Of a DNA stretch of 64,000 nt, positions 12,786 through 64,000 are shown in pieces. The notes beneath the pieces are model-generated. The model saw only the letters and a list, made by a program, of their open reading frames with translations, had not been told where the DNA came from and did no database searches. The translations under genes and the position numbers were made by a program. This stretch comes from Senegalia massiliensis (lineage in GTDB: Bacteria; Bacillota; Clostridia; Tissierellales; SIT17): NCBI RefSeq assembly GCF_900626135.1, contig NZ_LR130785.1:901241-965240 (forward strand), in the 5' to 3' direction. Within the stretch, counting starts at the first letter, position 1; each line of letters opens with the position of its first letter.

Positions 12786-12792
12786 TATAATA

Positions 12793-13776
12793 ATGAATAA
12801 TAATATAATTTGTATTAATTCTTTAAGTAAGAACTTTAAAGTCGCAAATAGAGTAGATTCAGGTTTAATGTCAGCTTTTAAATCATTATTTACTAGAGAA
12901 TATAAATATGTGGAAGCTTTGAAAAATATTGATTTTAAAGTTGAAGAAGGTGAAATAAGAGGACTTATAGGTCCCAACGGGGCAGGTAAATCAACACTAA
13001 TAAAAATTATGTCAGGAGTATTATATCCATCGGAAGGAAATGTTCAAATAATGGGATTCACTCCATGGGTTCATAGAAAAGAATATGTAAAAGATATAGG
13101 GGTTCTTTTTGGTCAAAAATCACAGTTATGGTGGGACTTGCCTGCAATAGACTCATTTGCGTTAAGTAAAAAACTTTATACTATTCCAGATAAAATGTTT
13201 AAAGATAATATAGACTTTTTTACTGATTTATTAAATGTAAGAGAAGTTATTACAAAACCAGTGAGACAACTTTCATTAGGGGAAAGAATGAAGTGTGAAT
13301 TTGTAAATGCCTTACTACATCAACCAAAACTAGTATATCTTGATGAACCAACAATAGGATTAGATATAGTTTCAAAAGAATTAATTAGAGAATTCATAAA
13401 AAATGTAAATAAAGAAAAAGGAACAACGTTTATAATTACTACCCATGATATAAGTGACATAGAAAATCTATGTAAGAAAATATCAATTATCAATAAAGGA
13501 GAAAAAGTTTTTGATGACTCATTAGAGGATTTAAAATTTTATTATGAAAATAAAAAGCTGATATCAGTTATTTTATCTAAGAAGGTTGATAAATATATTT
13601 TAAGAGAATTAGATGTTAAAAATATTAAAGGTAAAAAAATTCAAATTGAAATTGATTTAAGTGAAAAAAGCTTAAAAGGTGAAATTGTTAACCTATTTAA
13701 TAAATTACCAATCTATGACATAAATATAAATAGCATAAGTATTGAAGAGATTATTAAGCAAATTTATACAAACTAG
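12793..13776 (+). CDS. ABC-2 exporter ATPase subunit
   Basis: 327 residues from ATG 12793 (GGAGGG upstream; a GTG at 12772 would overlap the preceding gene). Motifs: Walker A GPNGAGKSTLIK, Q-loop LFGQKSQLWWDLP, signature LSLGERMK (the variant usual in the uncharacterised COG4586-type ATPases that accompany DUF990 permeases), Walker B LVYLDEPTIGLD, H-loop ITTHD. A C-terminal domain of about 90 residues follows. It powers the two preceding permeases. An ISL3 remnant begins directly after the stop, so the operon 3' end is a break point. Confidence 0.88.
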   Translation: MNNNIICINSLSKNFKVANRVDSGLMSAFKSLFTREYKYVEALKNIDFKVEEGEIRGLIGPNGAGKSTLIKIMSGVLYPSEGNVQIMGFTPWVHRKEYVKDIGVLFGQKSQLWWDLPAIDSFALSKKLYTIPDKMFKDNIDFFTDLLNVREVITKPVRQLSLGERMKCEFVNALLHQPKLVYLDEPTIGLDIVSKELIREFIKNVNKEKGTTFIITTHDISDIENLCKKISIINKGEKVFDDSLEDLKFYYENKKLISVILSKKVDKYILRELDVKNIKGKKIQIEIDLSEKSLKGEIVNLFNKLPIYDININSISIEEIIKQIYTN

Positions 13777-14146
13777 TGGAAAAAGCAAAAGATATCTCTT
13801 TAAATCAATTGGAATCAGTAATTGAAAAGTATCCAAATTTATCTATGATATATGACTTAGTTAAATTTTTTTAAGAAATTTGGTTTTATAAAAGCAATAT
13901 AAATTAGATAATTGGATTGAGGGAGCAAAATTATTGAATATTTTAGGTATCAATAGTTTTATTAATAGAATTCTTAGGGATATTGAATGAGTTAAAAAGT
14001 GAATTATACATGATTATAGTAACGGCTTAGTAGAAGATGGTGTAAATAAAATAAAAGTAATAAAAAGAATTATGTATGGTAGATGTAGTTTTGAAATCAT
14101 GGGGAAGAAAATTTTTATGCTTGAAGAAATACTTAAATTCAACTAA
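13777..14146 (+). pseudogene. ISL3-family transposase remnant (C-terminal part, frame-broken)
   Basis: Reading through several stops and frame changes gives consecutive pieces of an ISL3 transposase end: SLNQLESVIEKYPNLSMIYD, LDNWIEGAKLLNI, INSFINRILRDIE, then HDYSNGLVEDGVNKIKVIKR and MYGRCSFEIMGKKIF, ending at TAA 14144-14146. The YSNG-VE-NKIKVIKR block is the family hallmark around the final catalytic Glu. Bases just after (ACCCACTTTTAATTGACA) may be residual terminal sequence. It is not functional. The rest of the gap to 14316 shows no gene. Confidence 0.75.
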
Positions 14147-14316
14147 CTATGGAAAGCACCCACTTTTAATTGACAATCTACACTTAAATAAATTTAAAAA
14201 CAAAAACATCTTTTCTATATGTATATTATATCATATAATAACATAAAATTGTAGTCTAGTAGTTTCCTATATTGGATGATATACTTTTAACACTACTTAT
14301 AAAAGGAGATGTTTAT

Positions 14317-16608: not shown

Positions 16609-16718
16609 AAACAGAAAATTTAAGAGAGAACTTAAAAATCAATCTTATATATTGACATCCAAATGGCAGTGATGAAAGTAATCTTGCAGAACAATGATAT
16701 GAAAGTCTATTAGAAAGT

Positions 16719-16775
16719 AAACCGTCTCCCAAAAGTTAGACTAAAAAAAGTAACTTTTGAGAGGCGGTTTTAATT
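16719..16775. terminator. Large imperfect inverted repeat (terminator or IS end)
   Basis: AAACCGTCTCCCAAAAGTTA (16719-16738) is nearly complementary to TAACTTTTGAGAGGCGGTTT (16751-16770), then TTAATTTT. It could terminate helD transcription or be a residual insertion-sequence end next to the decayed transposase region that follows. GC content of the stem is well above its surroundings. Confidence 0.6.
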
Positions 16776-17400
16776 TTCAAAAATATAGGTTCAAATATTA
16801 TTTTATAGTTTTCATATTTATTTAATATTATTTCAAACTCTTCAGATACAATGAGTTTTATTTTTTCTATAGATTTATATAGTAAGCTAATTAAATTATT
16901 TCTTTTTCTAGATTTTGTATCTATCGTTTCCTTTACATCAAGAGTTTCAGACTTAAAATCAGTAATAAACTTTCTTGAAATTTAATCACTATCTGTATAT
17001 CATTGGTTTTTAATTTGTATGTATATTTCCTTTGAATTCGATCTATATATATAATACATTCTTCTAACTGGATTTTTATAACCATCAAACTTATTTTTAC
17101 ACTTTATCTTTTTTAATCCATGCTCCCATTTCCCATCCAATTCTAAGTATTTCTTTATGTATCATAATAGTTGCATATTTATATCATTTTTTAAAAGTGA
17201 AATCATCTATACAGATCTTTGTAATTTTGCTTTTATCAAGTATTTATGCTTCTTTTTTCAAAATATTGTATACTGTACTTTTTCTACGATTGCAATATTT
17301 TGTTTTAGTAGTTTAGATGTTGATATTGAGCTCATGTTCTTTGATAAGTTTATTATTTCATATTCTAATATTTTAGTTTTTTCAGCTTCATAATTTATGA
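16775..17400 (-). pseudogene. Decayed mobile-element region, including ISL3-like transposase core
   Basis: No intact gene is present on either strand. On the minus strand, with frameshifts and stops, about 17340 down to 17130 reads NMSSISTSKLLKQNIA, STVYNILKK, then KITKICIDDFTFKK followed by YKYATIMI. This is the DDE-entry block of ISL3 transposases (CIDDFA-KK-YGTIM). From about 17120 down to 16780 another minus-strand frame (WEHGLKKIKCKNKFDGYKNP) is open for stretches but unassigned. This core is on the opposite strand from the ISL3 C-terminal remnant at 13.8-14.1 kb. Confidence 0.5.
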
Positions 17401-49341: not shown

Positions 49342-50283
49342 ATGAGTAGAATAGTAATTGCATTAGGCGGTAATGCCTTAGGAAAAACACCGGAAGAACA
49401 GTTAAAATTGGTAAAAGATACAGCGAAGCCAATAGTTGATCTTATAGAAGATGGAAATGAAGTAGTAATAGCACATGGTAATGGTCCACAAGTTGGTATG
49501 ATTAACTTAGCAATGGAAGTTGCTTCAAGTGAAGAAGATGCTGTTCCTTCAATGCCGTTCCCAGAATGTGGAGCTATGAGTCAAGGATATATAGGATATC
49601 ATCTTCAAAATGCAATAGGTGAAGAATTAAAAAAGAGAAATACAAAAAAACCTGTAGCTACAATAGTAACTCAAGTTGTAGTAGATAAAGATGATGAAGC
49701 TTTCAAACATCCTTCTAAACCAATAGGAAGTTTCTATACTGAAGAACAGTGTGAAATTCTTAGAAAAGAAAAAGGTTATGATATGGTAGAAGATTCAGGA
49801 AGAGGATATAGAAGAGTAGTTGCTTCTCCAAAACCTGTAGATGTAGTAGAAAAAGAAACTGTAAAAGCTTTAATAGATAGCGGTCAAGTAGTTATCACTG
49901 TTGGTGGTGGTGGAATACCAGTAGTTGAAGAAGGAAATTCTTTAAAAGGCGTACCAGCAGTAATAGACAAAGACTTTGCTAGTGAAAAATTAGCTGAAAT
50001 AGTAGACGCTGATTATCTATTTATACTTACAGCAGTAGATAGAGTTTCAATTAACTTTGGTAAACCAGATCAATTAGATTTAGAATCAATGAGTATAAAA
50101 GAAGCTAAAAAATATATAGAAGAAAAGCACTTTGCACCAGGAAGTATGCTACCAAAAGTTGAAGCTGCTATGAAATTTGCAGAATCAAAAATAGGTAGAA
50201 CTACTATAATAGCTTCACTTGAAAAAGCTAAAGAAGCTTTAAAAGGTGAAAGTGGTACTAAAGTATATAAATCAGAAGAATAA
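49342..50283 (+). CDS. arcC: Carbamate kinase
   Basis: 313 residues, normal length. ALGGNALG near the start, HGNGPQVGMI, PFPECGAMSQGYIGY, VTQVVVDKDDEAF, VITVGGGGIPVV and ASEKLAEIVDADYLFILTAVD (quoted part VDADYLFILTAVD) are the family signatures. It converts carbamoyl phosphate plus ADP to ATP, ammonia and CO2. No arginine deiminase or ornithine carbamoyltransferase is in the window, so its carbamoyl phosphate must come from elsewhere; the FdrA/DUF2877 genes at 61.8-64 kb are a candidate source. Single-gene unit with AGGAGGT before ATG 49342 and its own terminator. Confidence 0.97.
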   Translation: MSRIVIALGGNALGKTPEEQLKLVKDTAKPIVDLIEDGNEVVIAHGNGPQVGMINLAMEVASSEEDAVPSMPFPECGAMSQGYIGYHLQNAIGEELKKRNTKKPVATIVTQVVVDKDDEAFKHPSKPIGSFYTEEQCEILRKEKGYDMVEDSGRGYRRVVASPKPVDVVEKETVKALIDSGQVVITVGGGGIPVVEEGNSLKGVPAVIDKDFASEKLAEIVDADYLFILTAVDRVSINFGKPDQLDLESMSIKEAKKYIEEKHFAPGSMLPKVEAAMKFAESKIGRTTIIASLEKAKEALKGESGTKVYKSEE

Positions 50284-50419: not shown

Positions 50420-53400
50420 GTGAAAAAATTTAAAAGAGTTTTAGTTGCCAATAGAGGAGAAATTGCTATTCGTATATTTCGAGCATGCCATGAATTAGGT
50501 ATTAGGACAGTAGCAATATATTCTCATGAAGACAGAAAGAGCTTATTCCGTACAAAAGCTGATGAATCCTACTTGATTGGGAAAAATAAGGGCCCTATTG
50601 AAGCATATTTAGATATTGATGAGATTATAAATCTTGCAAAAAATAAAGGGGTAGATGCAATACATCCTGGTTATGGGTTTTTATCAGAAAACCCTGAGTT
50701 TGTAAGAAAGTGTAATGAGGCTAATATAGAATTTATTGGACCAAGTGAGGATATGATGAAACAAGTAGGAGATAAAATATCTTCAAAAATTGTGGCTAAA
50801 GAAGTTGGTGTTTCTACAATACCAGGGATAGAAAAACCTATTAACTCAGAAAAAGAATTATTAAAATTTGCAGCCCATTGTGGATATCCTGTTATGCTAA
50901 AAGCAGCTGCTGGTGGTGGAGGACGTGGAATGCGTATTGTTAGAGATAAAGATGAATTAGTTTCTTCATTTCAAAGTGCAAAAAATGAAGCTAAAAAAGC
51001 ATTTGGTATAGATAGTATTTTTATTGAAAAATATCTTGAAAATCCAAAACATATAGAAGTTCAAATATTAGGAGATAAATCTGGCAATATAGTTCATCTT
51101 TTTGAGAGAGATTGTTCTATACAAAGACGACACCAAAAAATTATAGAGTTTACTCCAGCTTTTTCACTTTCAGATGAAAAAAGAAAAGCTATATGTGAGG
51201 ATGCAATAAAGATAGGAAAAGCTGTAAATTATAGAAATGCAGGAACAGTTGAATTTTTAGTTGATAACAAAGGCAATCATTACTTTATAGAGATGAATCC
51301 AAGAATTCAAGTGGAACATACAATTACAGAAATGGTAACAGGTATAGACATTGTTCAATCTCAAATATTGATTGCAGAAGGATATAGTCTAGATTCATCT
51401 AGGATTAATTTACCAAATCAAGAGAGTGTTGATGTACGTGGATATTCTATTCAGTGCCGTATAACAACAGAAGATCCTAAAAATAATTTTGCGCCAGATA
51501 CAGGTAAAATTGATGTTTATCGTTCGGCAAATGGATTTGGTATTAGATTAGATGGAGGAAATGGGTATACTGGGTCAGTAATTAGCCCTTATTATGATAG
51601 CCTTTTAGTTAAAACTATATCTTATTCTAGAACATTTGAAGATGCTGCAAAAAAAGCTGTAAGGTCAATTAGAGAATTTGCTATTAAAGGTATAAAGACC
51701 AATTCAGCTTTTTTAATTAATATACTAATGCATGAAACTTTTTTAAATGGAGAATGTGATACGAATTTTCTAGATAGTCATCCTGAAATCTTCAATATTA
51801 AACCTACAAGAGATAAAGAATTAAAATTATTGAAGTTTTTAGGCGAAAAAATAGTTAATGAAGTTAAAGGAGATAAAAAGGATTTTGATGTTCCTATGGT
51901 TCCTAAGTTAGAAAGAATAGATAATTTAAAAGGAACTAAACAGATATTAGATAACAATGGACCAGAAGGACTTGTAAATTGGATTAAAGATCAAAATAAA
52001 TTACTAATAACTGAAACTACTATGAGAGATGCTCAACAATCTCTTATGGCTACTCGCCTTAGAACAGTTGACATGATAAAGATTGCAAATGATACATCAA
52101 TACTTGGAAAAGATTTATTTTCTTTAGAAATGTGGGGAGGAGCTACATTTGATGTATCTTATAGATTTTTAAAGGAAAGTCCTTGGAAAAGACTAATAGA
52201 ACTTAGAAAAAAAGTTCCAAACATTTTATTCCAAATGTTACTTAGAGGAGCAAATGGAGTAGGCTATGCAAATTATCCTGATAATGTAATTAGAGAATTT
52301 ATAAAAGAATCAGCAAATGCAGGAATTGATTTATTTAGAATATTTGACTCATTAAACTGGTTAGATGGAATGAAAGTTGCTATAGATGAAGTTTTAAAAA
52401 CTGGTAAAATAGCAGAAGCTTCTATTTGTTATACTGGAGATATATTAGATAAAAAGAGAACTAAATATGATTTGGATTATTATATAAAATTAGCTAAAGA
52501 AATTGAAAAAACAGGAGCTCATATTTTAGCTATCAAAGATATGTCATCCTTATTAAAACCTTATGCTGCTTTTGAATTAATTACAGAGCTTAAAAAAGAA
52601 GTATCTATGCCTATTCATTTACACACTCATGATACTAGTGGAAATGGAGTAGCTACTCTTATAATGGCTGCAGAAGCAGGGGTAGATATTGTAGATACAG
52701 CATTTAATAGTATGTCAGGGCTTACTAGTCAACCAGCTTTAAACTCTGTAGTAGCAGCTCTTGAAAATACTAATAGAGATACTGGTATCTGTCTAGATAA
52801 TATCCAAAAACTTGATGACTACTGGAGTGCAGTAAGACCTGTATATGGGAATTTTGAATCTGAATTGAAATCAGGTACAGCTGAAATATATAAATATGAA
52901 ATACCAGGTGGACAATACTCAAATTTAAAGCCACAAGTTGAAAGTTTTGGGCTTGGCCATAGATTTACAGAAGTTAAAGAAATGTTTAAAAAGGCGAATG
53001 AAATGATGGGTGATATTGTAAAAGTAACTCCTTCTTCTAAAATGATAGGAGATTTAGCTATATTTATGGTAAGAAATGATTTAACGCCTGAAAATATCTA
53101 TGATAAAGCAAAAGGAATGAGTTTTCCTGATTCTGTAGATAGTTATTTTAAAGGTATGATGGGTCAACCAAAAGGTGGATTTCCGGAAAAGCTTAAAAAG
53201 CTTGTTTTAAAAGATAAAGAGTCTATTGACTGTAGACCAGGAGAATTATTACCACCAGTAGATTTTGAAGAGATAGAGAAACATTTAAAAGAAAATTTCA
53301 GAGTGGAACCTACTAAAAGACAACTTTTAAGCTATGCATTATATCCAAAAGTTTTTAGCGAGTATTTAAAATATATAAAAGATGAAGGTGACTTTACCAG

Positions 53401-53848
53401 AATGGGAAGTGATATATATTTCCATGGTCTAACTGTAGGAGAGACTTCAGAAATAGAAATAGAAGAAGGTAAAATACTAGTAGTTAAACTTATTCAAATT
53501 GGCAAGTTAGATAATGAAGGCTATAGAAATTTATCATTTGAAGTCAATGGAAATGTAAGAGAAATAAAAATCAAAGATAAGGCAAATAATATAATTGCAA
53601 ATGAAATATTTACTCAAATGGCAGATGTTGATAATCCACTAGAAGTTGGTGCTAGTATTCCAGGGACTATTTATAAGGTACTAGTAGAGGAAGGTCAGCA
53701 AGTTAAAATAAACGAACCTCTAATTATCATTGAAGCTATGAAAATGGAAACAATCATAAACTCTCCATCTAAAGGAATAGTAGGTTTAATTTTAGTTAAA
53801 GAACAAGATCAAGTTAAAAATGGAGAACTTTTAATAAAACTTAAATAA
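50420..53848 (+). CDS. pyc: Pyruvate carboxylase
   Basis: 1142 residues, full length. Biotin carboxylase domain (1-450) with KAAAGGGGRGMR ATP loop and FIEMNPRIQVEHT; carboxyltransferase domain (about 520-820) with TETTMRDAQQSLMATRLRT (quoted part TMRDAQQSLMATRLR), EMWGGATFD and HLHTHDTSGNG metal ligands; PC tetramerisation domain (about 830-1050); and a C-terminal biotinyl domain with EAMKMET, where Lys is biotinylated. It makes oxaloacetate from pyruvate and bicarbonate. It has a GTG start at 50420 with GGAGGAAAT upstream. It follows a strict palindrome that may be its operator. Confidence 0.98.
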   Translation: MKKFKRVLVANRGEIAIRIFRACHELGIRTVAIYSHEDRKSLFRTKADESYLIGKNKGPIEAYLDIDEIINLAKNKGVDAIHPGYGFLSENPEFVRKCNEANIEFIGPSEDMMKQVGDKISSKIVAKEVGVSTIPGIEKPINSEKELLKFAAHCGYPVMLKAAAGGGGRGMRIVRDKDELVSSFQSAKNEAKKAFGIDSIFIEKYLENPKHIEVQILGDKSGNIVHLFERDCSIQRRHQKIIEFTPAFSLSDEKRKAICEDAIKIGKAVNYRNAGTVEFLVDNKGNHYFIEMNPRIQVEHTITEMVTGIDIVQSQILIAEGYSLDSSRINLPNQESVDVRGYSIQCRITTEDPKNNFAPDTGKIDVYRSANGFGIRLDGGNGYTGSVISPYYDSLLVKTISYSRTFEDAAKKAVRSIREFAIKGIKTNSAFLINILMHETFLNGECDTNFLDSHPEIFNIKPTRDKELKLLKFLGEKIVNEVKGDKKDFDVPMVPKLERIDNLKGTKQILDNNGPEGLVNWIKDQNKLLITETTMRDAQQSLMATRLRTVDMIKIANDTSILGKDLFSLEMWGGATFDVSYRFLKESPWKRLIELRKKVPNILFQMLLRGANGVGYANYPDNVIREFIKESANAGIDLFRIFDSLNWLDGMKVAIDEVLKTGKIAEASICYTGDILDKKRTKYDLDYYIKLAKEIEKTGAHILAIKDMSSLLKPYAAFELITELKKEVSMPIHLHTHDTSGNGVATLIMAAEAGVDIVDTAFNSMSGLTSQPALNSVVAALENTNRDTGICLDNIQKLDDYWSAVRPVYGNFESELKSGTAEIYKYEIPGGQYSNLKPQVESFGLGHRFTEVKEMFKKANEMMGDIVKVTPSSKMIGDLAIFMVRNDLTPENIYDKAKGMSFPDSVDSYFKGMMGQPKGGFPEKLKKLVLKDKESIDCRPGELLPPVDFEEIEKHLKENFRVEPTKRQLLSYALYPKVFSEYLKYIKDEGDFTRMGSDIYFHGLTVGETSEIEIEEGKILVVKLIQIGKLDNEGYRNLSFEVNGNVREIKIKDKANNIIANEIFTQMADVDNPLEVGASIPGTIYKVLVEEGQQVKINEPLIIIEAMKMETIINSPSKGIVGLILVKEQDQVKNGELLIKLK

Positions 53849-53993: not shown

Positions 53994-55610
53994 TTGGAAA
54001 GTACAGTAGCTAATATATTAAAATTAAAAGGGTTTAATGGAGCAAAAATAATAGGTGGAATAAATGGAATTCATAATGAAGTAAAAAATGGTTTTCTAAT
54101 GGAAGTTCCTGATGTTTTTTCATATATTGAAGAAAAGTCATTGCTTGTTACAACTCTATATCCAATATATAAAGATGAAAAAGCAAAAGATGAATTAATT
54201 CCTAAACTAGCATCTAAGAATTTAGCAGGAATTTGTATAAAGCCTCAAAGATATGTACCAAGGATTCCAGAAGTAATGGTTGAACAAGCTAATAAATTAG
54301 GTTTTCCATTGATAAAACTTCCACAAGACGCAAATTTATCTAATTTGGTTAATGAAATATTAGAATTATCATTAAATAAGCACATAGGAATACTTAAGTT
54401 TAGAAATTTTGTAAATGAGAAAATGATGGAACTTTTTTTAAAAGGGGAAGGATTAAACACACTTATTGAAGAATTTTCTAGAATTATAGATTCACCTGTA
54501 ATTTTGTTTGATAATGACTTTAATATAAAATTAACTTCAAAAAATATTAAAGATAAATTAATTTATTTGGAGAATGAGCAATTTGTTAATGCTGAGAATT
54601 TACAATTAGTTGTTGGTGGAATAAAAATAGAACAAGATAATTATATAATAAATAGAATTAAAGCTGGTAATAACTCTTTTGGATATTTAATGGTGGTAGA
54701 ATGTAATAGAAAAGATGAAAATATTCTAGTCGCATTAAATCAAGCTTCATTGTTGTTAGCATCTGAGTTTCATAAAAATAGAGCGATATTAGAAAAAGAA
54801 AAAAATTATTTAAATTCTTTTATAAGAGAGATGCTTGAAAACAACATAAGTTCTAAAACAGAAGCTGTAAATAAAGCAAAGTCATTTGGTTGGGAGCTGG
54901 AATTTCCACAAGTAATAATTGATTTAAAATTACTTGTTCAAGATGAAAAAATTAAAAGGGAAAATTATGAAAAATTAATAGAAGAAAAAACTTTAGAAAA
55001 TATTATAAGTAAAAAAATAAATATTGAGTTAAGAAAAATTAAATCAGCACATATTGATGATTCATTAATTATATTTGTAAATGTAGGTAGCTTTGAATAC
55101 AATAAAGAAATATTGATGAATATTGCTACAACAATATTAAATGAGTTAAAGTATATGGGGAAAATTGGAATAGGAATATCTAAAAGAATAGAAAAAATAA
55201 ATGAATTACCACTTGCATATAAAGAAGCTAAAAATGGTATAGAAATAGGAAAAGCACTAAATAAAGATTCATTTTTAATTCATTATGAAGATTTCAGAGT
55301 AATAAATTTAATTAAAGAAATAAAAGATATAACATTATTAAAAAACTATGTAAATGAAAAGTTAGGAAAATTAATTGAATACGATAATAGTCATGATTTA
55401 AGTTTGATGAACACTTTAAAAGGAGTACTTGATACAAATTTCAACTTACAAAAAACAGCTAAAAATATGTATATTCATTATAATACGCTTAGATATAGAA
55501 TGGAAAAATTAAGAGAACTAGGAATAAATATTGATGATGGATTTGAAATAGGTGAAATAGTACTAGCTTATAATATATATATATGGTTTAAATCAAAAGG
55601 TGAGATGTAA
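53994..55610 (+). CDS. PucR family transcriptional regulator
   Basis: 538 residues from TTG 53994 (TGGAGG upstream). N-terminal PucR domain (about 1-125, GGINGIHNEVKNGFLMEVPDVF, quoted part GFLMEVPDVF; IPEVMVEQANKLGFPLIKLP), a middle GGDEF-like CdaR region, and a C-terminal PucR helix-turn-helix (LDTNFNLQKTAKNMYIHYNTLRYRMEKL region, quoted part KTAKNMYIHYNTLRYRM). PucR regulators control purine, ureide and related nitrogen catabolism. It sits immediately before the ring-opening and deaminase genes, so it is probably their regulator. The inducer is unknown. Confidence 0.9.
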   Translation: MESTVANILKLKGFNGAKIIGGINGIHNEVKNGFLMEVPDVFSYIEEKSLLVTTLYPIYKDEKAKDELIPKLASKNLAGICIKPQRYVPRIPEVMVEQANKLGFPLIKLPQDANLSNLVNEILELSLNKHIGILKFRNFVNEKMMELFLKGEGLNTLIEEFSRIIDSPVILFDNDFNIKLTSKNIKDKLIYLENEQFVNAENLQLVVGGIKIEQDNYIINRIKAGNNSFGYLMVVECNRKDENILVALNQASLLLASEFHKNRAILEKEKNYLNSFIREMLENNISSKTEAVNKAKSFGWELEFPQVIIDLKLLVQDEKIKRENYEKLIEEKTLENIISKKINIELRKIKSAHIDDSLIIFVNVGSFEYNKEILMNIATTILNELKYMGKIGIGISKRIEKINELPLAYKEAKNGIEIGKALNKDSFLIHYEDFRVINLIKEIKDITLLKNYVNEKLGKLIEYDNSHDLSLMNTLKGVLDTNFNLQKTAKNMYIHYNTLRYRMEKLRELGINIDDGFEIGEIVLAYNIYIWFKSKGEM

Positions 55611-55704
55611 GGGTTTTTAAATAAAGGAGTCCACAGTTTTAGACATTTTTTTCAGGGTAAAAATAAGATGTAGAATATTATGATAAATAATAGGGGAGAT
55701 AAAC

Positions 55705-56565
55705 ATGCAAAAAGGTATGAGAAAATATGAAGAGTTTTTAAATAGAGGTAGAGAAAATTTCTTGAAGAAAGTTGAAGACGCATACGAAGAATTTAAAGAA
55801 ACTAAAACAATTAGATTCCCAGCTTGGCAATATGGTGAACCTAAAGGTAAAATAATTAAATTAGAAGTAGAAGATACTCCAAAATTCGGACAGAATGCTT
55901 TTATAGAATTAGACTCAGCAAGAACAGCATTTATCTCAATAGATATGCAAACAGATTTTGCAGGTGAAAAAGGATATGTAGATGTTATGGGCTATGATTT
56001 AGCTGCAACTTCTGCACCTATAAAACCTATAAAGAATGTATTAGATACTATTAGAGGAACTGATATAAAAGTAGTTCATACAAGAGAAGGACATTTACCT
56101 GATTTATCTGATGCTCCCTTTAATAAAGTATTAAGATCTAAAATAATAGGACATGGTGTTGGTATTGGAGAAACTCCTGAAGGAGGAATAGGTAAGCTTT
56201 TAACTAGAGGTGAACCGAATTGGGATATAGTAGATGAACTTTATCCTATAGAAGGTGAATATATAGTAGATAAAGAAGGTAAAGGTGCATTTACTATGAG
56301 TAACATACATCTATTATTAAAAAACTTAGGGGTAACTCATCTAGTAATTTCAGGTATAACTACAGATGTATGTGTTCACACTATTATGCGAGAAGCTAAT
56401 GATTATGGTTATTGGTGTATACTTTTAAAAGATTGTACTGGAGCAACAGATGAAGAAAACTATAAATCAGCAATAAAATCTATAAAAATGCAAGGTGGAG
56501 TATTTGGTAATGTTTCTGATTCAGAAAGGTTTATAAAAGCAGTTAAAGAAGCAGGATTAAAATAG
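55705..56565 (+). CDS. Isochorismatase-fold amidohydrolase, biuret-hydrolase-like
   Basis: 286 residues. The cysteine-hydrolase triad is complete: Asp80 (SIDMQTDF), Lys190 (VDKEGKGAF) and Cys223 (TTDVCVHTIMREAND). Spacing (Lys to Cys 33 residues) and the HTREGHLPDL, LTRGEPNWDI and MQGGVFG segments match, from memory, rhizobial biuret hydrolase BiuH (Asp36, Lys142, Cys175), with Gln263 at its Gln215 position. BiuH cuts biuret to allophanate and ammonia. An extra N-terminal helical segment of about 45 residues is absent from BiuH. Alternatives are ureidoacrylate-type amidases. It is a single-gene unit 94 bases after the PucR gene, with its own terminator. Confidence 0.82.
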   Translation: MQKGMRKYEEFLNRGRENFLKKVEDAYEEFKETKTIRFPAWQYGEPKGKIIKLEVEDTPKFGQNAFIELDSARTAFISIDMQTDFAGEKGYVDVMGYDLAATSAPIKPIKNVLDTIRGTDIKVVHTREGHLPDLSDAPFNKVLRSKIIGHGVGIGETPEGGIGKLLTRGEPNWDIVDELYPIEGEYIVDKEGKGAFTMSNIHLLLKNLGVTHLVISGITTDVCVHTIMREANDYGYWCILLKDCTGATDEENYKSAIKSIKMQGGVFGNVSDSERFIKAVKEAGLK

Positions 56566-56588
56566 AATTTTAAATATAGTATTTAAAT

Positions 56589-56625
56589 AAAAGATAGTAT
56601 AACTCTAGAGTTATACTATCTTTTA
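56589..56625 (+). terminator. Terminator after the biuret-hydrolase-like gene
   Basis: AAAAGATAGTATAACTC pairs with GAGTTATACTATCTTTT with almost no loop, then ATTTAATTT. The rest of the gap to 56811 shows no gene. Confidence 0.85.
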
Positions 56626-56811
56626 TTTAATTTATGATATTAAAACTTTAAACATAAATATACTAAATTTCAGGTATAGAAAATAGTATTAGCAAAGTTC
56701 GACAATATTTTTAAAAATGTTTATGACCTTTTTACAATGATAAAAACTATATAAATTGATACAATATTATCATAAAAGGAAAACGATTATTATACGAGGA
56801 GGAAGATATAT

Positions 56812-57915
56812 ATGATGGATGTAAATATTTACAGAGTACCAATGTCAGGACCAGAGGATGTTTCTGGACTTAAAAAATTAGTAGATAGTGGTGAAATAAA
56901 ACCAGAGGAAATAGTGGCAGTTCTTGGCAAAACAGAAGGTAATGGTTGTGTAAATGACTTTACTAGAGGATATGCTACTCAAAGCTTTAAACTTTATCTG
57001 TCTAGAGAATTAGATAAATCAATGGATGAAATAGGTGAAACTGTAGCATTTGTAATGAGTGGTGGTACAGAAGGTGTTATGTCACCACATGCAACTATTT
57101 TTACTAAAAAGCAAGTAGAGGCAGAGGAAAGAGATGAAAAATCATTAGCTTTAAGTGTTGGATTTACTAAAGAGTTCTTACCAGAAGAAATGGGAAGAAT
57201 GGAAATGGTAAAGGAAGTAAAAAGAGTTGTATTAGAATTAATGAAAGAAACAGGAATAGAAAATAAAGAAGATGTTCACTTTGTACAAATTAAAACTCCT
57301 TTATTAACTTCAGATAGAATAAATGATGCATATTCTAGAGGTAAAGATGTAGCTGTAGAAGATACTTATAAGTCTATGGGTTATACAAGAGGAGCATCAG
57401 CATTAGGTGTTGCCATTGCTTTAGGTGAAATAGAAGAATCAAAAGTTACAAATGAATCTATATTACATGATTGGAATCTTTATTCAAATATAGCTTCAAC
57501 TTCAGCAGGTGTTGAACTATTAAACTGTGAAATAATCCTTTTAGGAAATTCTAAAAAATCAGTAAGTCAATATAAAATAGGACATAGTGTTATGAAGGAT
57601 TCAATAGACTTAGAAGCAGTGATAGAATCTATGAATGATGCAGGTCTTGGAGTAGATAAACTTCCAACAGAAGAACAAAAAAATAGAATAGTAAATATAT
57701 TAGCAAAAGCTGAAGCATCTCCTGATGGATATGTAAGAAATAGAAGAACTACAATGCTTACAGATTCTGATATAAATCATACAAGACAAGCAAGATCTGT
57801 AGTAAATGCTGTAATATCTTCTATAGTAGGAGATCCTATGGTATATGTTTCTGGAGGAGCAGAGCACCAAGGACCTGCAGGTGGTGGACCAATAGCTACA
57901 ATAATAGAGAAGTAA
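56812..57915 (+). CDS. Cyanuric acid amidohydrolase/barbiturase family ring-opening enzyme
   Basis: 367 residues, the family length. The three repeated domains each supply a Lys-Ser pair: Lys40 (VLGKTEGNG) with Ser83 (MSGGTEGVM), Lys161 (QIKTPLL) with Ser231 (ASTSAGVE), and Lys299 (ILAKAEASP) with Ser347 ([15 protein letters not shown]). All six are present. The family opens cyanuric acid (to carboxybiuret, which decarboxylates to biuret) or barbiturate (to ureidomalonate). The neighbouring biuret-hydrolase-like and CodA-like genes favour cyanuric acid, but the sequence does not settle it. AGGAGGAAG precedes ATG 56812 (ATG 56815 also possible). First gene of an operon with the deaminase and a permease. 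Confidence 0.9.
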
Positions 57916-57942
57916 AAATACTTGAATAGAGGGGAGTATAAA

Positions 57943-59142
57943 ATGAAAGTTTTATTTAAAAATTGTTATATGCCTTTTAAAAACGAAATTCAAGATATAT
58001 ATATTAAAGATGGATATATTGAAAAAATTGATTCTAATATAGACAATATAACAGTAGATAAGATAATAGATGTAGATAAAAAGATTGTTATTAATGGATT
58101 TGTAGATAGTCATATGCATTTGGATAAAGCTTTAATCGGAGAGAAGGTTTCTAATCAATCGGGAACTTTAAATGAAGCCATAGAAATAATGACTAATTAT
58201 AAAGAAAATATGTCTGAATCTGATATAAAAGATAGAGCTAGAAAAACTTTAGAACTTGCATATGAAAATGGTACTAGATATTTAAGAACTCATGTAGATG
58301 TTGATGAAATAATAGGGTTGAAAGGTATTCATGCTATTTTAGAACTTAAAGAGGAATTCAAAGAAAAAATTGATATTCAAATAGTTGCATTTCCTCAAGA
58401 AGGGTTTATAGAAAATCTGAATAATTATAAATATCTAGAAGATGCTCTGAAGCTTGGAACAGATATAGTAGGTGGTATACCAGCTATAGAGAAAAAGCCT
58501 AAAGAACATATTGATATGATATTTGAATTAGCTAAAAAATATAATAAAGATATTGATATGCATATTGATGAGACTGATGATTCAGATACACTTACTGTTA
58601 AATATCTAGCTGATAAAACTATAGATGAAAATTATCAAGGCAGAGTAGTAGCAGGACATTGTTGTAGTTTATCAGCAAATAAATTAGAAGATATTAAAAA
58701 TATTTTATCTTTAATCAAGAAGGCAAAAATTGGTATAGTTACACTTCCCTCTACTAATTTATATTTACAAGGAAGAAATGATGATAAAAATTATAGAAGA
58801 GGAATAACAAGGGTAAAAGATTTACTTGAAAAAGGTATAGATGTAAGTATAGGTTCTGATAACATAAGAGATCCATTTAACCCTTTTGGGAATGGAAATT
58901 TATTAGAGGAAGCTCTTATAGGTGCTCATGGGTCACATATGGGTGGTATAGATGATTTATCTAATATATTTGATATGATTTCTATTATTCCTTCCTCTTT
59001 ATTCAATAATAATTATGAAGTCAAAGAAAAACAAAGAGCAAGATTTATTGTTATAAATACAAATAAAAAACACAAGGCAATAATAGAAAGATCAAATATA
59101 TGGGGTCATTTTAAAAAGGAGGAATTTAAATGGAATTATTAA
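57943..59142 (+). CDS. CodA-type amidohydrolase/deaminase (cytosine or aminotriazine class)
   Basis: 399 residues from ATG 57943 (GAGGGGAG upstream; an in-frame start at 57922 is less likely). Metal ligands of the cytosine-deaminase group are visible: VDSHMHLDK (H57, H59), DMHIDETDDSD (CodA HCDE-like, catalytic Glu), VAGHCCSLS and IGSDNIRDPFNPFGNG (metal Asp). Relatives deaminate cytosine, creatinine or ammelide-type triazines (AtzC). Downstream of a cyanuric acid hydrolase, ammelide to cyanurate is the attractive reaction; cytosine to uracil is the null alternative. It overlaps the following permease by 13 bases, so the two are translationally coupled. Confidence 0.8.
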   Translation: MKVLFKNCYMPFKNEIQDIYIKDGYIEKIDSNIDNITVDKIIDVDKKIVINGFVDSHMHLDKALIGEKVSNQSGTLNEAIEIMTNYKENMSESDIKDRARKTLELAYENGTRYLRTHVDVDEIIGLKGIHAILELKEEFKEKIDIQIVAFPQEGFIENLNNYKYLEDALKLGTDIVGGIPAIEKKPKEHIDMIFELAKKYNKDIDMHIDETDDSDTLTVKYLADKTIDENYQGRVVAGHCCSLSANKLEDIKNILSLIKKAKIGIVTLPSTNLYLQGRNDDKNYRRGITRVKDLLEKGIDVSIGSDNIRDPFNPFGNGNLLEEALIGAHGSHMGGIDDLSNIFDMISIIPSSLFNNNYEVKEKQRARFIVINTNKKHKAIIERSNIWGHFKKEEFKWNY

Positions 59143-60380
59143 TTAATGTTATACCTTTAGTAGTTATTTTAATATTATTATTTATGAGAAAGCATATGCT
59201 TTTTGCAGGCTTAGTTGGTGGAATACTGGCTATGATAATAGGAGGTATTGGCATAGGTGAAGCTACAGGGCTGTTTATTGGTGGTGTAGGTAATATGTTA
59301 GGTATTACAGTACCAATATTATATGCAGCAGCAGCATCAATGGTAGCAAAGGCAGGAAGCATAGAATCTTTAGTTGAACTTGCTAAAAGAGGATTAAAAG
59401 GAAAAATAGCTATACTTGGTGGAATAATGGTGTTAATTCAAGCTTTTGCAACATATACTGCAGGACTTGGTGCAGGAAATACAATGGTTACAGCACCACT
59501 TGTAGCAATAGCACTTGGAGCAGTTCCAGAAGTTATAGCAGGAATGGCAATAGCAACAGCAGTTGGTTTTACTACTTCTCCAGCTTCAACAGAAACAGTA
59601 ATAGCTGCAGAAAGTGCAGGACGTGATGTTGTAGCTCATGCAAATGCAATGTTACCTTATACAATAGTATTTTTTGTACTTGCAGCAGCACTTGCAGTTT
59701 ATGGAGTATATAGAAGAGGTTCTTTAGTAAGAGAAGGAAAAGATAAAAAACAAGAAGAAAATGTATCAACATCTATATTAGTAAAAAGAGCAATACCTTC
59801 TATAGCACTTTTAACATTAGTTGTACTTGGTAGTAATTTGAATGAGCTTATAGGGATAACTTTATTCACTCCAGCAACAGCAGTAATTTTTACAGCAATA
59901 TTAACTGTAATATGTACACCACTTAATATAGACAAAACAAGTGAAGCTTTAATTGATGGCTCTAAATTTATACTTACTACATTATTTTCTGTAGGAATAT
60001 TCTTATCATTTATAAACATGATAGGTGAACTTGGAACTTTTGAACAATTAGCGGGTCTTGTATCTAAAGCACCTGATGCTATAATCCTTCCTATGGCTAT
60101 GGTTGCAGCATTTTTAATAGCAATACCTTCTGGAGCATTTACAGCAGGAGTATTAACACTTATATTACCAACATTATCAGTACTAGGATTGCCATCAGAA
60201 GCTATGGGATTTGTTGCAATAGCTACTGGACTTGGTACTCAAATAAGTCCGGTTCAAATAAATGTAGCAGCTTTAGCAGATGGTTTTGATTTAGAAATAA
60301 TGGATGTTATAAAGGAAAATGTGAAATATGTTATACCTGCATTTATATTAGTTACAATAGTTGCTATAATATTTGTATAA
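59130..60380 (+). CDS. Membrane permease of ion-transporter type, unknown substrate
   Basis: 416 residues with about 11-12 helices. Paired hairpin regions are rich in Gly/Ala/Ser (TYTAGLGAGNTMVTAPLV and GFTTSPASTETVIAAES in the first half, IPSGAFTAGVLTLILPTL and ATGLGTQISPVQINVAAL in the second), as in ion transporter superfamily anion carriers (DcuC/GntP/CitMHS-like). It is coupled to the CodA-type deaminase and lies in the ring-opening operon, so it probably imports the substrate or exports a product. I cannot assign a family more closely. Confidence 0.7.
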   Translation: MELLINVIPLVVILILLFMRKHMLFAGLVGGILAMIIGGIGIGEATGLFIGGVGNMLGITVPILYAAAASMVAKAGSIESLVELAKRGLKGKIAILGGIMVLIQAFATYTAGLGAGNTMVTAPLVAIALGAVPEVIAGMAIATAVGFTTSPASTETVIAAESAGRDVVAHANAMLPYTIVFFVLAAALAVYGVYRRGSLVREGKDKKQEENVSTSILVKRAIPSIALLTLVVLGSNLNELIGITLFTPATAVIFTAILTVICTPLNIDKTSEALIDGSKFILTTLFSVGIFLSFINMIGELGTFEQLAGLVSKAPDAIILPMAMVAAFLIAIPSGAFTAGVLTLILPTLSVLGLPSEAMGFVAIATGLGTQISPVQINVAALADGFDLEIMDVIKENVKYVIPAFILVTIVAIIFV

Positions 60381-60386
60381 ACCATA

Positions 60387-60418
60387 AATAAAGGGATTAA
60401 GATTAATCCCTTTATTTA
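60387..60418 (+). terminator. Terminator after the permease
   Basis: AAATAAAGGGATTAA pairs with TTAATCCCTTTATTT. Only about 30 bases separate it from the next gene, so partial read-through is plausible. Confidence 0.85.
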
Positions 60419-60448
60419 CGAGTATAATAATGAGGAGATATAACTTAA

Positions 60449-61762
60449 ATGGAGAATAATACAACAGAAATCAATATTATTTATGGTATAAATGATAAAC
60501 CTAAGTTATCAAAAAGTATTCCTTTGGCATTTCAACATATATTAGCTATGTTTGCATCAAATATTACAGTCCCATTATTGTTATCAAATGCATTAGGATT
60601 AAATTCAAAGGAAACTACTTTTTTAATACAATGCGCCTTATTTATGGCTGGAATATCTACTTTCATTCAGATAAGTAAAAAGGGTAAAATAGGTTCAGGT
60701 TTACCTATTGTAATGGGAACAAGCAATGCTTTTATTGCAACAGTTTTAGCAATAGGAACACAATTTGGTATAGAAGCAGTACTTGGTGCAAGTCTTATTG
60801 GGGGATTATTTGAAATTTTTATAGCTTTAAATTTAGATAAACTCAAAAAAATTTTTACTCCATTAGTTTCTGGTATTGTAGTTTTGAGTATAGGGATGAC
60901 TCTCATTCCTGTTGGTATAAAACAAGCTGCAGGAGGAAATGGAGACATAGGTAGTTTCAAAAATTTATTTATATCTACTACTGTATTAATTACTATAATT
61001 ATATTTAATCAGTTTGGTAGTAAATTTACAAAATCTTCATCTGTATTAATAGGGCTTGTAGTAGGTTATATTTTATCTATTTTTATGAATTTAATTGATT
61101 TCACACCGGTTTTAGAAGCATCTTGGGTATCATTTCCAAGACCTCTAGCATATAAATGGGTGTTTGAACCTTCTGCTATAATAGCAATGGTATTTATGTA
61201 TATAGCTACTTCAATAGAAACTATTGGAGATATATCTGCTCTTACTAGTGCATCTGAGGGTAGAGATGCTACTCCAGAAGAAGTAAAAGGTGGAGTTTTA
61301 GCAGATGGAGTAGCAAGTGCAATTGCTTCATTTTTTAATGCTTTTCCAAACACATCATATACTCAAAATATTGGCGTAGTAAATTTGACTGGAGTATTTA
61401 GTAGATATGTGGTAAAGATAGGAGCAATTATACTATTAATATTAGCACTACTTCCAAAGTTTGCAGCGATTATTTCAATAATGCCAGAAGCTGTACTAGG
61501 TGGTGGAACAATTGCAATGTTTTCTATGGTAATGGTTTCTGGACTTACTTTACTTAAAAATATTAGATTTACTAGTAGAAATTTATTGATAATTGCTATC
61601 TCTATAGGTGTAGGTGTAGGGCTTAATCTAGTTCCAGAAGTTACTTCTCAATTTTCAACAAATATTCAATTATTTTTAACTTCAGGAGTTGTTCCTGCAT
61701 CAATAATTGCAATAGTATTAAATATTGTGTTACCAAAAGATGAAATTAAAGGTGAGGTATAA
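60449..61762 (+). CDS. NCS2 family xanthine/uracil-type permease
   Basis: 437 residues, 14 helices in the UraA fold. The N-terminal AFQHILAMFASNITVPLLL, the ATSIETIGDISALT segment in helix 8 and FNAFPNTSYTQNIGVVNLTG in helix 10 are NCS2 hallmarks; the TSYTQN form belongs to the xanthine/uric acid branch. It imports a purine-like or pyrimidine-like ring by proton or sodium symport; cyanurate or barbiturate are plausible in this cluster. Its stop abuts the next ATG (TAAATG), coupling it to the DUF2877 gene. Confidence 0.9.
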   Translation: MENNTTEINIIYGINDKPKLSKSIPLAFQHILAMFASNITVPLLLSNALGLNSKETTFLIQCALFMAGISTFIQISKKGKIGSGLPIVMGTSNAFIATVLAIGTQFGIEAVLGASLIGGLFEIFIALNLDKLKKIFTPLVSGIVVLSIGMTLIPVGIKQAAGGNGDIGSFKNLFISTTVLITIIIFNQFGSKFTKSSSVLIGLVVGYILSIFMNLIDFTPVLEASWVSFPRPLAYKWVFEPSAIIAMVFMYIATSIETIGDISALTSASEGRDATPEEVKGGVLADGVASAIASFFNAFPNTSYTQNIGVVNLTGVFSRYVVKIGAIILLILALLPKFAAIISIMPEAVLGGGTIAMFSMVMVSGLTLLKNIRFTSRNLLIIAISIGVGVGLNLVPEVTSQFSTNIQLFLTSGVVPASIIAIVLNIVLPKDEIKGEV

Positions 61763-62668
61763 ATGAGCACTAATAAAATTAAAGGATTATATTTAGATAG
61801 AGACTTCCAATATTTTTTAAAGGAAAAAAATATTCAAGGTGATATTCATAGTATATTTGACAAAGTAGTAAATATTCAATCTGATAATGGTACGCTTTAT
61901 ACAATTTCAAATAATAAAACAGATAATGCACCATATACTTTAAAAGTAGATTATAATGGTAGTTTTAAAGATATAGTATTTGAAGATCAAAATATAATTA
62001 AAAATAAAGATAATTTATTTATAGGAAATATAGAAATTGATTTATCTAGTGCAGAATTATGGAATGTAGAAAGAGAAAAAATACAAAGCTTTTCTACTGA
62101 ATATATAAAGAAAAATATAGGTATTTTTAATATGATGATACAAAGCATGGGCAGTAGTGGTGGATGTAAATATTATTATTTAAAAAACTTTTTAGGTATA
62201 GAAAATAATTCAGATAGTTTAATAGAAAGGGAACTTTCTAAAAAAATAGATGATTTTTATATGAAAATTAAACAAGATAATATCCAAGAGACAGATATTA
62301 GAGGATTAATAGGACTTGGAATGGGCCTTACTCCTTCTGGAGATGATTTTTTAACAGGATTTATGGCAGCTATAACCATATTTAATAAGAATAATGATTT
62401 ATTTCATAAAATAAAGGATTTAATACCTTTAGATACAAAATCTACAACTGATGTAAGTAGAGCAATGTTAAAAGCAGCAACTCAAGAAAAGTTTAGGGAA
62501 TATTTAAATGATTTTATATATTCATTTTTATATAACAATAGTGATAAATATTTGAAATCTTTTAAAAATCTTTTAACTATAGGATCTTCTTCTGGAACAG
62601 ATATGAGTATAGGCGTAGTATTAGGATTTTTATTTACAATTGATGAAAATGAAATGGAGGAATTTTAA
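61763..62668 (+). CDS. DUF2877 protein (AllH/YlbF-like carbamoyltransferase subunit)
   Basis: 301 residues. The DUF2877 signature GLGMGLTPSGDDFLTGFM is at about 186-203, with a C-terminal GSSSGTDMSIGVVLGFLF segment. In E. coli the DUF2877 protein YlbF (AllH) acts with FdrA (AllF) and YlbE (AllG) as an oxamate carbamoyltransferase in allantoin fermentation. Here it directly precedes fdrA (0-base gap), which supports the same complex. The natural acceptor could differ from oxamate, since the cluster is built around ring-opening enzymes. Confidence 0.85.
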   Translation: MSTNKIKGLYLDRDFQYFLKEKNIQGDIHSIFDKVVNIQSDNGTLYTISNNKTDNAPYTLKVDYNGSFKDIVFEDQNIIKNKDNLFIGNIEIDLSSAELWNVEREKIQSFSTEYIKKNIGIFNMMIQSMGSSGGCKYYYLKNFLGIENNSDSLIERELSKKIDDFYMKIKQDNIQETDIRGLIGLGMGLTPSGDDFLTGFMAAITIFNKNNDLFHKIKDLIPLDTKSTTDVSRAMLKAATQEKFREYLNDFIYSFLYNNSDKYLKSFKNLLTIGSSSGTDMSIGVVLGFLFTIDENEMEEF

Positions 62669-64000
62669 ATGGTATCAAATACAGTTATTAGACAAAATTC
62701 ATATTATGATTCTGTAACTCTTATGAGTCTATCTAGTAAGATTACAGATTTAGAAGGTATAGAAGATGCAGTTATATCAATGGGTACAGATATGAATAAA
62801 GAATTATTACAAAATGTAGGGTTAGATACAGAAGAATCAATGAATGCAAAAAGTAGTGACCTTATAATTGCAATAAAGGCAGACAACCAAGAAAATTATG
62901 AAAAAGCTTACGAAAAAGTAGATGAATTGTTAAATTCTAAAAGTTCTGATGAAGGAGAAAGGGAAAAGAAAAACCCTAAGACTATATCAGATGCTGTAAA
63001 TAGAATGGAACAAGCAAATATGGTTGTAATTTCTGTACCAGGAGAATATGCAGCAAGAGAAGTAGATAAGGCATTAGATAATAATCTACATGTAATGTTA
63101 TTTAGTGATAATGTATCAATAGAAGATGAAGTAAGACTTAAAGAGAAGGCACGTGACAAAGGATTATTAGTTATGGGGCCAGACTGTGGTACAGCTAGTA
63201 TAAATAATACTGGATTATGTTTTGCAAATAAGGTTAACGAAGGGAATATTGGACTTGTAGCTGCCTCAGGTACAGGCCTTCAAGAAGTAATGGTACAAAT
63301 AGATAGATTAGGTGGAGGGATTTCTCAAGCCATAGGTACTGGTGGACGTGATTTAAAAGAAGAAGTTGGTGGAATAATGATGCTCGAATCAATAAATGCA
63401 TTGGAAAAAGATAATTCTACTGATGTAATAGTGCTTATTTCTAAACCACCAGCAAAATCTGTAGAAAAGAAGATTTTAGAGAGGGTATCAGAAATAGACA
63501 CTCCTGTAGTAGTATCATTTATTGAAGGTGATAGTAAAGAAGTAGAAAAAGTAGGAGCTATTTTTGGATATAATCTATATGATACAGCTAAAAAAGCAGT
63601 AGCACTATCAAATAAGAACAAAAATGTAGATACAAATGAAAACAGTAATGAATTAAAACAACAAATTATAGATGCAAAAGAAAAATTAAAAGACAGTCAA
63701 AAATATGTAAGAGGGTTATATGGTGGTGGAACTCTTTGTGCAGAGACTTTAGCTATTTTAAGAGACAAATTAGATGGAATAAAAAGTAATGTAGCAAAAG
63801 GTGATGAAGAAAAATTAGAGAATGTAGAAGATTATTTAGGTAATGTATTATTAGATTTAGGTGAAGATGAATTTACGCAAGGTAGACCTCATCCTATGAT
63901 AGATCCTACTATAAGATTAAGTAAAATTAAAAAAGAAGTAAAAGATGAAAGTGTAGGAGTTATATTATTAGATTTTGAATTAGGTTATGGTTCTCATGAA
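62669..64000 (+). CDS. fdrA: FdrA-like carbamoyltransferase subunit (AllF), 3' end beyond the window
   Basis: Open from ATG 62669 (GGAGGAATTTTAA upstream) through the window end: 444 codons without a stop. Signatures of the succinyl-CoA-synthetase-like FdrA family: N-terminal RQNSYYDSVTLMSLSSKI, a GPDCGTASINNTGLCFANKV segment (about 170-189), AASGTGLQEV and AIGTGGRDLKEEVGG (about 220-234), then DVIVLISKPPAKSV. In E. coli it is the main subunit of oxamate carbamoyltransferase, which phosphorolyses oxalurate to carbamoyl phosphate. A YlbE/AllG partner would be expected just past 64000. Confidence 0.92.
   Translation, partial: MVSNTVIRQNSYYDSVTLMSLSSKITDLEGIEDAVISMGTDMNKELLQNVGLDTEESMNAKSSDLIIAIKADNQENYEKAYEKVDELLNSKSSDEGEREKKNPKTISDAVNRMEQANMVVISVPGEYAAREVDKALDNNLHVMLFSDNVSIEDEVRLKEKARDKGLLVMGPDCGTASINNTGLCFANKVNEGNIGLVAASGTGLQEVMVQIDRLGGGISQAIGTGGRDLKEEVGGIMMLESINALEKDNSTDVIVLISKPPAKSVEKKILERVSEIDTPVVVSFIEGDSKEVEKVGAIFGYNLYDTAKKAVALSNKNKNVDTNENSNELKQQIIDAKEKLKDSQKYVRGLYGGGTLCAETLAILRDKLDGIKSNVAKGDEEKLENVEDYLGNVLLDLGEDEFTQGRPHPMIDPTIRLSKIKKEVKDESVGVILLDFELGYGSHE

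Follow-up and report, generated by a model that had tools for sequence, protein, structure and literature searches.

Triazine herbicides, melamine and pool disinfectants leave behind cyanuric acid, a stable end product whose breakdown is taught as an aerobic way to obtain nitrogen. What, then, are genes for its degradation doing in the chromosome of an apparent anaerobe? The question is raised by a stretch of 64,000 nucleotides from Senegalia massiliensis (contig NZ_LR130785.1, G000:C1:901241-965240), here called the window and used for all coordinates, which belongs to a genome (G000) of 2.87 Mb and 99% completeness. A preliminary description, made from the letters of the window, had placed a chromosomal, fermentative s-triazine or barbiturate pathway near its end, with the ring as both nitrogen and energy source. 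The present analysis suggests that the locus is probably a cyanuric acid fermentation operon, in which a ring-opening hydrolase of the AtzD type is followed by the carbamoyltransferase AllFGH and a carbamate kinase yielding ATP, where the substrate of AllFGH and the yield of ATP are what we infer. The preliminary description is thus supported in part: the triazine locus, an energy module and the conservation of the neighbours stand, while barbiturate and the biuret hydrolase BiuH as an essential step do not. Its energy source finds a basis in AllFGH and the kinase, although this ATP-making step had not been seen. A chromosomal triazine locus also suits the genome, in which a search for haem-copper oxidases, not extended to cytochrome bd, found none, as fits an anaerobe.

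Gene families were assigned by matches to Pfam and NCBIfam profiles with the equivalog cut-offs of NCBI, and all open reading frames named earlier were present on the plus strand with the families given to them (Table 1). The ring-opening enzyme, encoded at 56812, has the three Lys-Ser pairs that had been reported (K40/S83, K161/S231 and K299/S347) and keeps the substrate arginine R52, and its seven active-site positions (KRSKSKS) equal those of AtzD, TrzD and the Moorella cyanuric acid hydrolase (CAH). At the positions that define cyanuric acid hydrolase specificity (Arg195, Thr321, Arg325, Gly345 and Gly346 in AtzD numbering; PMC3758960), it carries the set RTRGG, where alignment with solved structures gives NHKVS for barbiturase. 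Over aligned columns, the protein is 65% identical to Moorella CAH, 61% to TrzD, 51% to AtzD and 45% to barbiturase. By its residues, it belongs with the cyanuric acid hydrolases rather than the barbiturases. Since all catalytic residues and the RTRGG set are present, barbiturate is an unlikely substrate, and this option was rejected. Cyanuric acid hydrolysis has been proven for the Moorella enzyme (PMC6557486), and ring opening by the window enzyme would be predicted from such close homologues, the only proteins in which it has been shown.

Downstream of AtzD, the window breaks off within FdrA (AllF), a gene that had been listed rightly although it is incomplete there, and AllG/DUF1116 beyond it had gone unseen. 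Because FdrA continues past the window end and AllG follows it, the AllFGH subunits are complete, with AllF, AllG and AllH encoded together (61763-65644). The genes from AtzD to AllG mostly abut or overlap, and those beyond AllG lie on the opposite strand; the operon ends at AllG. While the members of the earlier gene list were right, it had overlooked the carbamate kinase, which is part of the set. A pyruvate carboxylase gene divides this kinase from the operon in the window and in a second genome of the genus (G160). In other genera, the kinase adjoins the operon, and its orthologue, with 59-76% identity, directly follows AllG in Tissierella, Sporosalibacterium, C. ultunense and Proteiniclasticum. 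In E. coli, AllFGH catalyses the reversible conversion of oxalurate and phosphate to oxamate and carbamoyl phosphate, and AllK makes ATP (PMC11326118).

In the proposed pathway, cyanurate would be imported, or formed from ammelide by the CodA/AtzC-type deaminase, and would be opened by AtzD to 1-carboxybiuret, which would yield biuret and CO2. Biuret is oxalurate with NH2 replacing the carboxylate, and AllFGH would let phosphate displace its terminal carbamoyl group, giving carbamoyl phosphate and urea. Alternatively, AllFGH may act on carboxybiuret to give carbamoyl phosphate and allophanate, or on allophanate after BiuH. Carbamate kinase would then convert carbamoyl phosphate and ADP to ATP, NH3 and CO2, with about one ATP per ring, or two if AllFGH acted twice, on carboxybiuret and then on allophanate. 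In the window genome, the BiuH branch would turn biuret into allophanate and NH3, freeing more nitrogen without urease.

According to the preliminary description, its reading depended on the gene neighbours being conserved in related genomes, and they were found conserved across phyla. The search for co-occurrence that it had proposed found AtzD in 13, AllG in 60 and both in 11 of 398 Bacillota genomes (Fisher p = 2.4e-8), with AllG in 11 of the 13 AtzD genomes against 49 of the 385 others. In 18 of 20 Bacillota loci that have complete flanks and a CAH-type AtzD, AtzD adjoins AllG; such locus counts are not fully independent, as the genomes may include more than one of the same species. The gene set co-occurs far beyond chance. 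The closest named AtzD relatives of the window genome are Tissierella species, and the order PucR-AtzD-(CodA)-transporter-NCS2-AllH-FdrA-AllG-carbamate kinase recurs in three Tissierella, C. ultunense, Sporosalibacterium and Proteiniclasticum, with PucR at the same position in nearly all related Bacillota operons. Rearranged or partial versions occur in Amphibacillus, Pelolinea, Melaminivora and metagenome-assembled genomes (MAGs), namely a Halanaerobiales MAG, Solobacterium MAGs, an archaeal MAG and another Chloroflexota MAG, and further Bacillota genomes agree with the gene set. In the window's own genus, two genomes have both AtzD and AllG and two have neither. The AllG of the window falls within a 12-member AtzD-linked clade (99/94), and since the tree forces at least four changes between AtzD-linked and other labels, this linkage has probably arisen or been exchanged several times.

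Divergent AtzD homologues of about 45% identity were also seen at three loci (L056, 3581; L057, 10195; L058, 9967). Here, two Lys-Ser dyads are partly lost (Q/I and N), the specificity residues read KAKAG or KQKAG, and the neighbours include FdrA, two AllG copies, AllH and a CodA-like gene; these enzymes probably open the ring of some asymmetric substrate.

The hydrolytic steps that could otherwise follow AtzD were sought as well. In the window genome, no allophanate hydrolase exceeded the TIGR02713 cut-off, the best matches being two amidases far below it, and among the AtzD genomes searched this enzyme passed only in G465, which has AtzD without AllG and in which BiuH and AtzF, encoded near AtzD, pass their cut-offs. 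Allophanate hydrolase was accordingly set aside as the downstream step, as was urease as a sink for urea, with no urease alpha subunit above cut-off in 19 AtzD genomes and weak partial matches to another model. In the pADP-1 and Rhizobium controls, AtzD stands with hydrolytic partners, and no AllFGH was seen within the flanks read. In this sample, the AllFGH tail and the hydrolytic tail look mutually exclusive, one Klebsiella plasmid excepted. Because AtzD genomes that bear AllG are without allophanate hydrolase or urease, AllFGH and the kinase appear to replace the hydrolytic tail.

BiuH, by comparison, is an optional member of the AtzD-AllFGH operons. The biuret-hydrolase-like enzyme at 55705 had been rightly recognised, to judge by its residues, yet it missed the NF050097 equivalog (283.8 against 370 bits). 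It shares 58% identity with BiuH of R. leguminosarum and conserves all the biuret contacts checked (D36, F41, Y47, K145, T171, V174, C175 and Q215), and the Cys-Asp-Lys triad is intact. By published residue criteria (PMC5806882, PMC7948467), its second shell (Y47, Y53, D173 and V218; YYDV) is of the BiuH type, and the Phe, Asn, Glu and Ile found in the triuret hydrolase TrtA at BiuH positions 47, 53, 173 and 218 are absent. The protein may thus be regarded as a divergent, N-terminally extended BiuH, and an 85% identical copy with the same extension occurs in another family of the phylum (G410). BiuH had been taken for an essential successive step, but most related operons lack it: it is missing next to AtzD in Tissierella, in Sporosalibacterium and on the plasmids, and is gone from the G160 operon, whose proteins are 92-99% identical to those of the window. 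The G160 spacer between PucR and AtzD matches both ends of the window spacer, and its junction, CAGGATTAAAATAG, retains the last BiuH codons. Imperfect 13-bp repeats flank the deleted segment (55653-55665 and 56552-56564), consistent with loss by deletion between them.

A second entry point into the module is suggested by Peptoclostridium acidaminophilum, where a cluster reads PucR-permease-isochorismatase-permease-AllH-FdrA-AllG-kinase and no AtzD was found within the stretch examined. Its AllG groups within the AtzD-linked clade (99/97; sister 100/98), and its isochorismatase has Phe, Asn, His or Glu, and Ile at the discriminating positions. At the same positions, the isochorismatases of L022, L023, L047, L048 and L122 read FNHI and that of L024 reads FNEI. 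FNEI marks TrtA and YYDV biuret hydrolase (PMC7948467); overall similarity does not discriminate the two activities among these TrtA-like proteins. A triuret-hydrolase-like enzyme would therefore stand in for AtzD before AllFGH in P. acidaminophilum. As both AtzD and TrtA yield carboxybiuret (PMC7948467) and both precede AllFGH of the same clade, the simplest shared explanation would be that the substrate of AllFGH is carboxybiuret, or the biuret left after its decarboxylation. Beside the TrtA-like isochorismatases of L122, L022, L024 and L047 lies a membrane protein of about 510 residues, annotated as xanthine permease in P. acidaminophilum and possibly a carrier of triuret or biuret. The suspicion that this reading frame (L022, L024 and L047) encodes an amidase was rejected, as it had no match in Pfam and its sequence looks like that of a permease with many membrane helices.

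Characterised enzymes belong to the same surroundings. The crystallised TrzD (5t13) is identical at 366 of 366 residues to a gene on Aminobacter plasmid pSR8 and Klebsiella plasmid pKqs_SB610_3 that sits between FdrA-AllG and carbamate kinase. Likewise, the Moorella CAH crystal construct, which was re-engineered (PMC6557486), is 96% identical to the AtzD of L049, which shares a single run of genes with AllG, FdrA, AllH, two permeases and carbamate kinase. Because TrzD and Moorella CAH match such loci, cyanuric acid hydrolases of measured activity occur in this operon type. An 8.9-kb cassette with the order transporter-AtzD-NCS2-AllH-FdrA-AllG-kinase, without BiuH and AtzF, is carried by 50 plasmid records (L117, L118 and another 48 in PLSDB), of which 47 reach at least 99% identity; 36 of the 50 plasmids are predicted to be conjugative. 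Hosts are Citrobacter, Klebsiella, Enterobacter, Leclercia, Raoultella, Serratia, Aeromonas, Shewanella and one E. coli. Complete E. coli genomes contained no close copy of the cassette, although this one E. coli plasmid with it is listed in PLSDB. The carriers include clinical and shower-water enterobacteria, and on pEsco-36073cz the cassette lies beside a mercury-resistance operon. The chromosomal, fermentative version first described is therefore not confined to anaerobic chromosomes, as the gene set also travels on conjugative plasmids of enterobacteria and triazine degraders. A wider claim may well hold, although with modest confidence: that AllFGH of this clade have an undescribed activity as carboxybiuret/biuret carbamoyltransferases and define a pathway of substrate-level phosphorylation by which anaerobes ferment s-triazines and triuret, and that TrzD and the Moorella enzyme belong to such a pathway rather than to nitrogen scavenging.

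How AllFGH enters the pathway can be read in other ways. It is possible, though rather unlikely, that AllFGH acts on allophanate and not on biuret, so that AtzD and BiuH would make allophanate, and AllFGH and the kinase, in place of allophanate hydrolase, would give carbamoyl phosphate and carbamate in what would be the same fermentation. A BiuH-type enzyme with an intact active site indeed adjoins AtzD both in the window and in G410, neither of which has AtzF above cut-off in its genome; however, most AtzD-AllFGH operons, including those of the 50 plasmids and G160, have no biuret hydrolase beside AtzD, and BiuH would therefore not make allophanate there. An ordinary oxamate carbamoyltransferase of purine (allantoin/oxalurate) breakdown, next to AtzD by coincidence, is an improbable reading. 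While this is the sole activity known biochemically for AllFGH (PMC11326118), and PucR and NCS2 would suit purines, the AllA-E genes are absent from the locus, unlike in E. coli, and the repeated association in the AllG tree and the joint presence or absence of AtzD and AllG within the genus speak against coincidence. The distinct AllG clade and its AtzD context argue for an acyl-urea other than oxalurate.

Plain nitrogen scavenging, with AtzD and BiuH freeing ammonia hydrolytically and no energy conserved, is similarly doubtful: the hydrolytic pathway of Rhizobium uses the same enzymes, but allophanate hydrolase and urease do not exceed their cut-offs, BiuH is dispensable, and carbamate kinase and AllFGH are conserved with AtzD across phyla. 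Least probable is a fermentation of barbiturate, in which the AtzD homologue would form ureidomalonate and AllFGH would yield carbamoyl phosphate and malonamate. Ureidomalonate is likewise an acyl-urea similar to oxalurate, NCS2 permeases carry pyrimidines, and barbiturases belong to the AtzD family, yet every CAH-type AllFGH-linked enzyme checked shares the RTRGG set of the window, the NCBI equivalog for cyanuric acid amidohydrolase is exceeded by 190 bits, and the operon has no amidase or malonate gene. Some observations weigh against cyanuric acid fermentation by AllFGH itself. The TrzD-type plasmid cassettes (L121, L123) have FdrA and AllG and no recognisable AllH, where E. coli needs three subunits; the third may be diverged or dispensable. 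One Klebsiella plasmid with such a cassette has AtzF nearby, and Halolactibacillus miurensis (L021) has AtzD and both transporters, with no AllFGH, BiuH or AtzF within about 10 kb of AtzD. In addition, BiuH without AtzF in the window genome would imply that allophanate is also a substrate of AllFGH, or that it breaks down unaided.

Table 1 Features of the cyanuric acid locus, in window coordinates.
Feature	Position	Strand	Evidence
Carbamate kinase (ArcC/AllK type)	49342-50283	+	TIGR00746 arcC equivalog, 393 bits (cut-off 358)
Pyruvate carboxylase, between carbamate kinase and PucR	50420-53848		
PucR-family transcription regulator	53994-55610	+	PF07905 PucR and HTH_30
BiuH-type isochorismatase with 65-residue N-terminal extension; accessory step	55705-56565	+	
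Terminator-like hairpin between PucR-BiuH and AtzD operon	56584-56629	+	Stem of 20-22 bp
Cyanuric acid hydrolase (AtzD/TrzD/MCAH type)	56812-57915	+	NF052395 equivalog, 550.6 bits (cut-off 360)
CodA/AtzC-type deaminase	57943-59142	+	PDB matches incl. E. coli CodA 1k6w and AtzC 2qt3
Secondary transporter, ion-transporter-superfamily fold (MleN/INDY/TRAP-M-like)	59130-60380	+	Predicted structure
NCS2 nucleobase:cation symporter (xanthine/uracil-permease family)	60449-61762	+	PF00860; TIGR03173 above cut-off
AllH (DUF2877), carbamoyltransferase subunit	61763-62668	+	PF11392 AllH, 92 bits
FdrA/AllF carbamoyltransferase subunit	62669-64000 (cut by window end; true end 64213)	+	NF004760 FdrA, 523 bits (cut-off 433; full protein)
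AllG/DUF1116	64226-65644 (window-equivalent, outside window)		PDB 3clq, E 2e-138

The CodA-type deaminase and the two permeases of the preliminary description were confirmed (57943, 59130 and 60449). The deaminase conserves the metal and catalytic residues of amidohydrolases and has the loop SDNIRD as in AtzC, where E. coli CodA has HDDVFD, although its highest PDB score is to E. coli CodA. Given the shared loop and a related amidohydrolase in the TrzD-type cassettes, the enzyme probably feeds ammelide into the pathway by converting it to cyanurate and NH3. The 59130 transporter matched no Pfam or NCBIfam family, and its AlphaFold model (pLDDT 80.5) gave 9a59 (MleN) as the best Foldseek match (TM 0.69), followed by VcINDY and TRAP transporters. 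With its predicted ion-transporter (IT) superfamily fold, the protein would be suited to carrying cyanurate or a product in anionic form, and the family is conserved in most AtzD-AllFGH loci, across phyla. Upstream, the hairpin before AtzD folds as RNA at -26.5 kcal/mol (z -6.4), and since so strong a hairpin precedes AtzD, BiuH is probably transcribed with PucR and separately from the AtzD operon. No RNA families were found near the locus. A second cluster of the same genome (L064, G000:C2:200001-220000, about 8491-17354) combines FdrA-AllG, in the absence of AtzD, with a PucR regulator, a member of the 59130 transporter family and two distinct CodA-like amidohydrolases, and may represent a sister system that acts on a different N-carbamoyl substrate.

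No description of AtzD with AllFGH was found in the accessible literature, although an earlier account in subscription literature is possible, and the nearest published case is that of nitrifiers with allFGHK beside biuret and triuret genes (PMC12625717); apart from it, the literature search met only work on the oxamic transcarbamylase of E. coli. The parts are known; what seems new is how they are combined and the enzyme activity that this implies. If the proposal is true, anaerobes and gut-associated bacteria would gain ATP from cyanuric acid, and a recently discovered class of transcarbamylases would gain a new substrate. It would also correct the context of the TrzD and Moorella cyanuric acid hydrolases and explain the cassette on conjugative plasmids of Citrobacter, Klebsiella and Enterobacter. 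Finally, the locus would provide a genetic basis for anaerobic degradation of cyanuric acid, on which Jessee et al. reported in 1983 (title cited by PMC12342508). The compound reportedly served as energy source in that study.

The closest known system is allFGHK of E. coli, the oxamate branch of its anaerobic allantoin breakdown, with an oxamic transcarbamylase and a catabolic carbamate kinase (PMC11326118), in which all four proteins are homologous to those of the window set (FdrA 36%, AllG 45%, AllH 32% and kinase 38% identity) and the same logic of acyl-urea phosphorolysis and ATP formation applies as proposed here. However, the E. coli module is fed by allantoinase and AllC/AllD, whereas the window set would be fed by a cyanuric acid hydrolase; the window AllG belongs to a distinct clade, and the presumed leaving group is urea or allophanate instead of oxamate. 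In the AtzD-AtzG-AtzE-AtzH-AtzF pathway of pADP-1, a homologous hydrolase opens the ring to carboxybiuret, as here, but amidases then hydrolyse carboxybiuret and allophanate with a gain of nitrogen only, where the window has AllFGH and carbamate kinase. The Rhizobium BiuH route (PMC5806882) and G465 place AtzD beside a BiuH with the same biuret contacts as in the window, yet G465 lacks AllG and has AtzF, and BiuH is optional in the AtzD-AllFGH operons. Similarly, the triuret pathway trtA-trtB-biuH-atzF (PMC7948467) runs through carboxybiuret and biuret, and comammox bacteria have biuH, trtA and atzF next to allFGHK, read there as separate oxalurate degradation, with no atzD found (PMC12625717); unlike these systems, the window locus has no hydrolytic tail, which leaves AllFGH as the only downstream candidate. 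The arginine deiminase and agmatine fermentations likewise turn a carbamoyl group into ATP via carbamoyl phosphate, as would the cyanuric acid operon, but with a different substrate and a carbamoyltransferase family unrelated to AllFGH.

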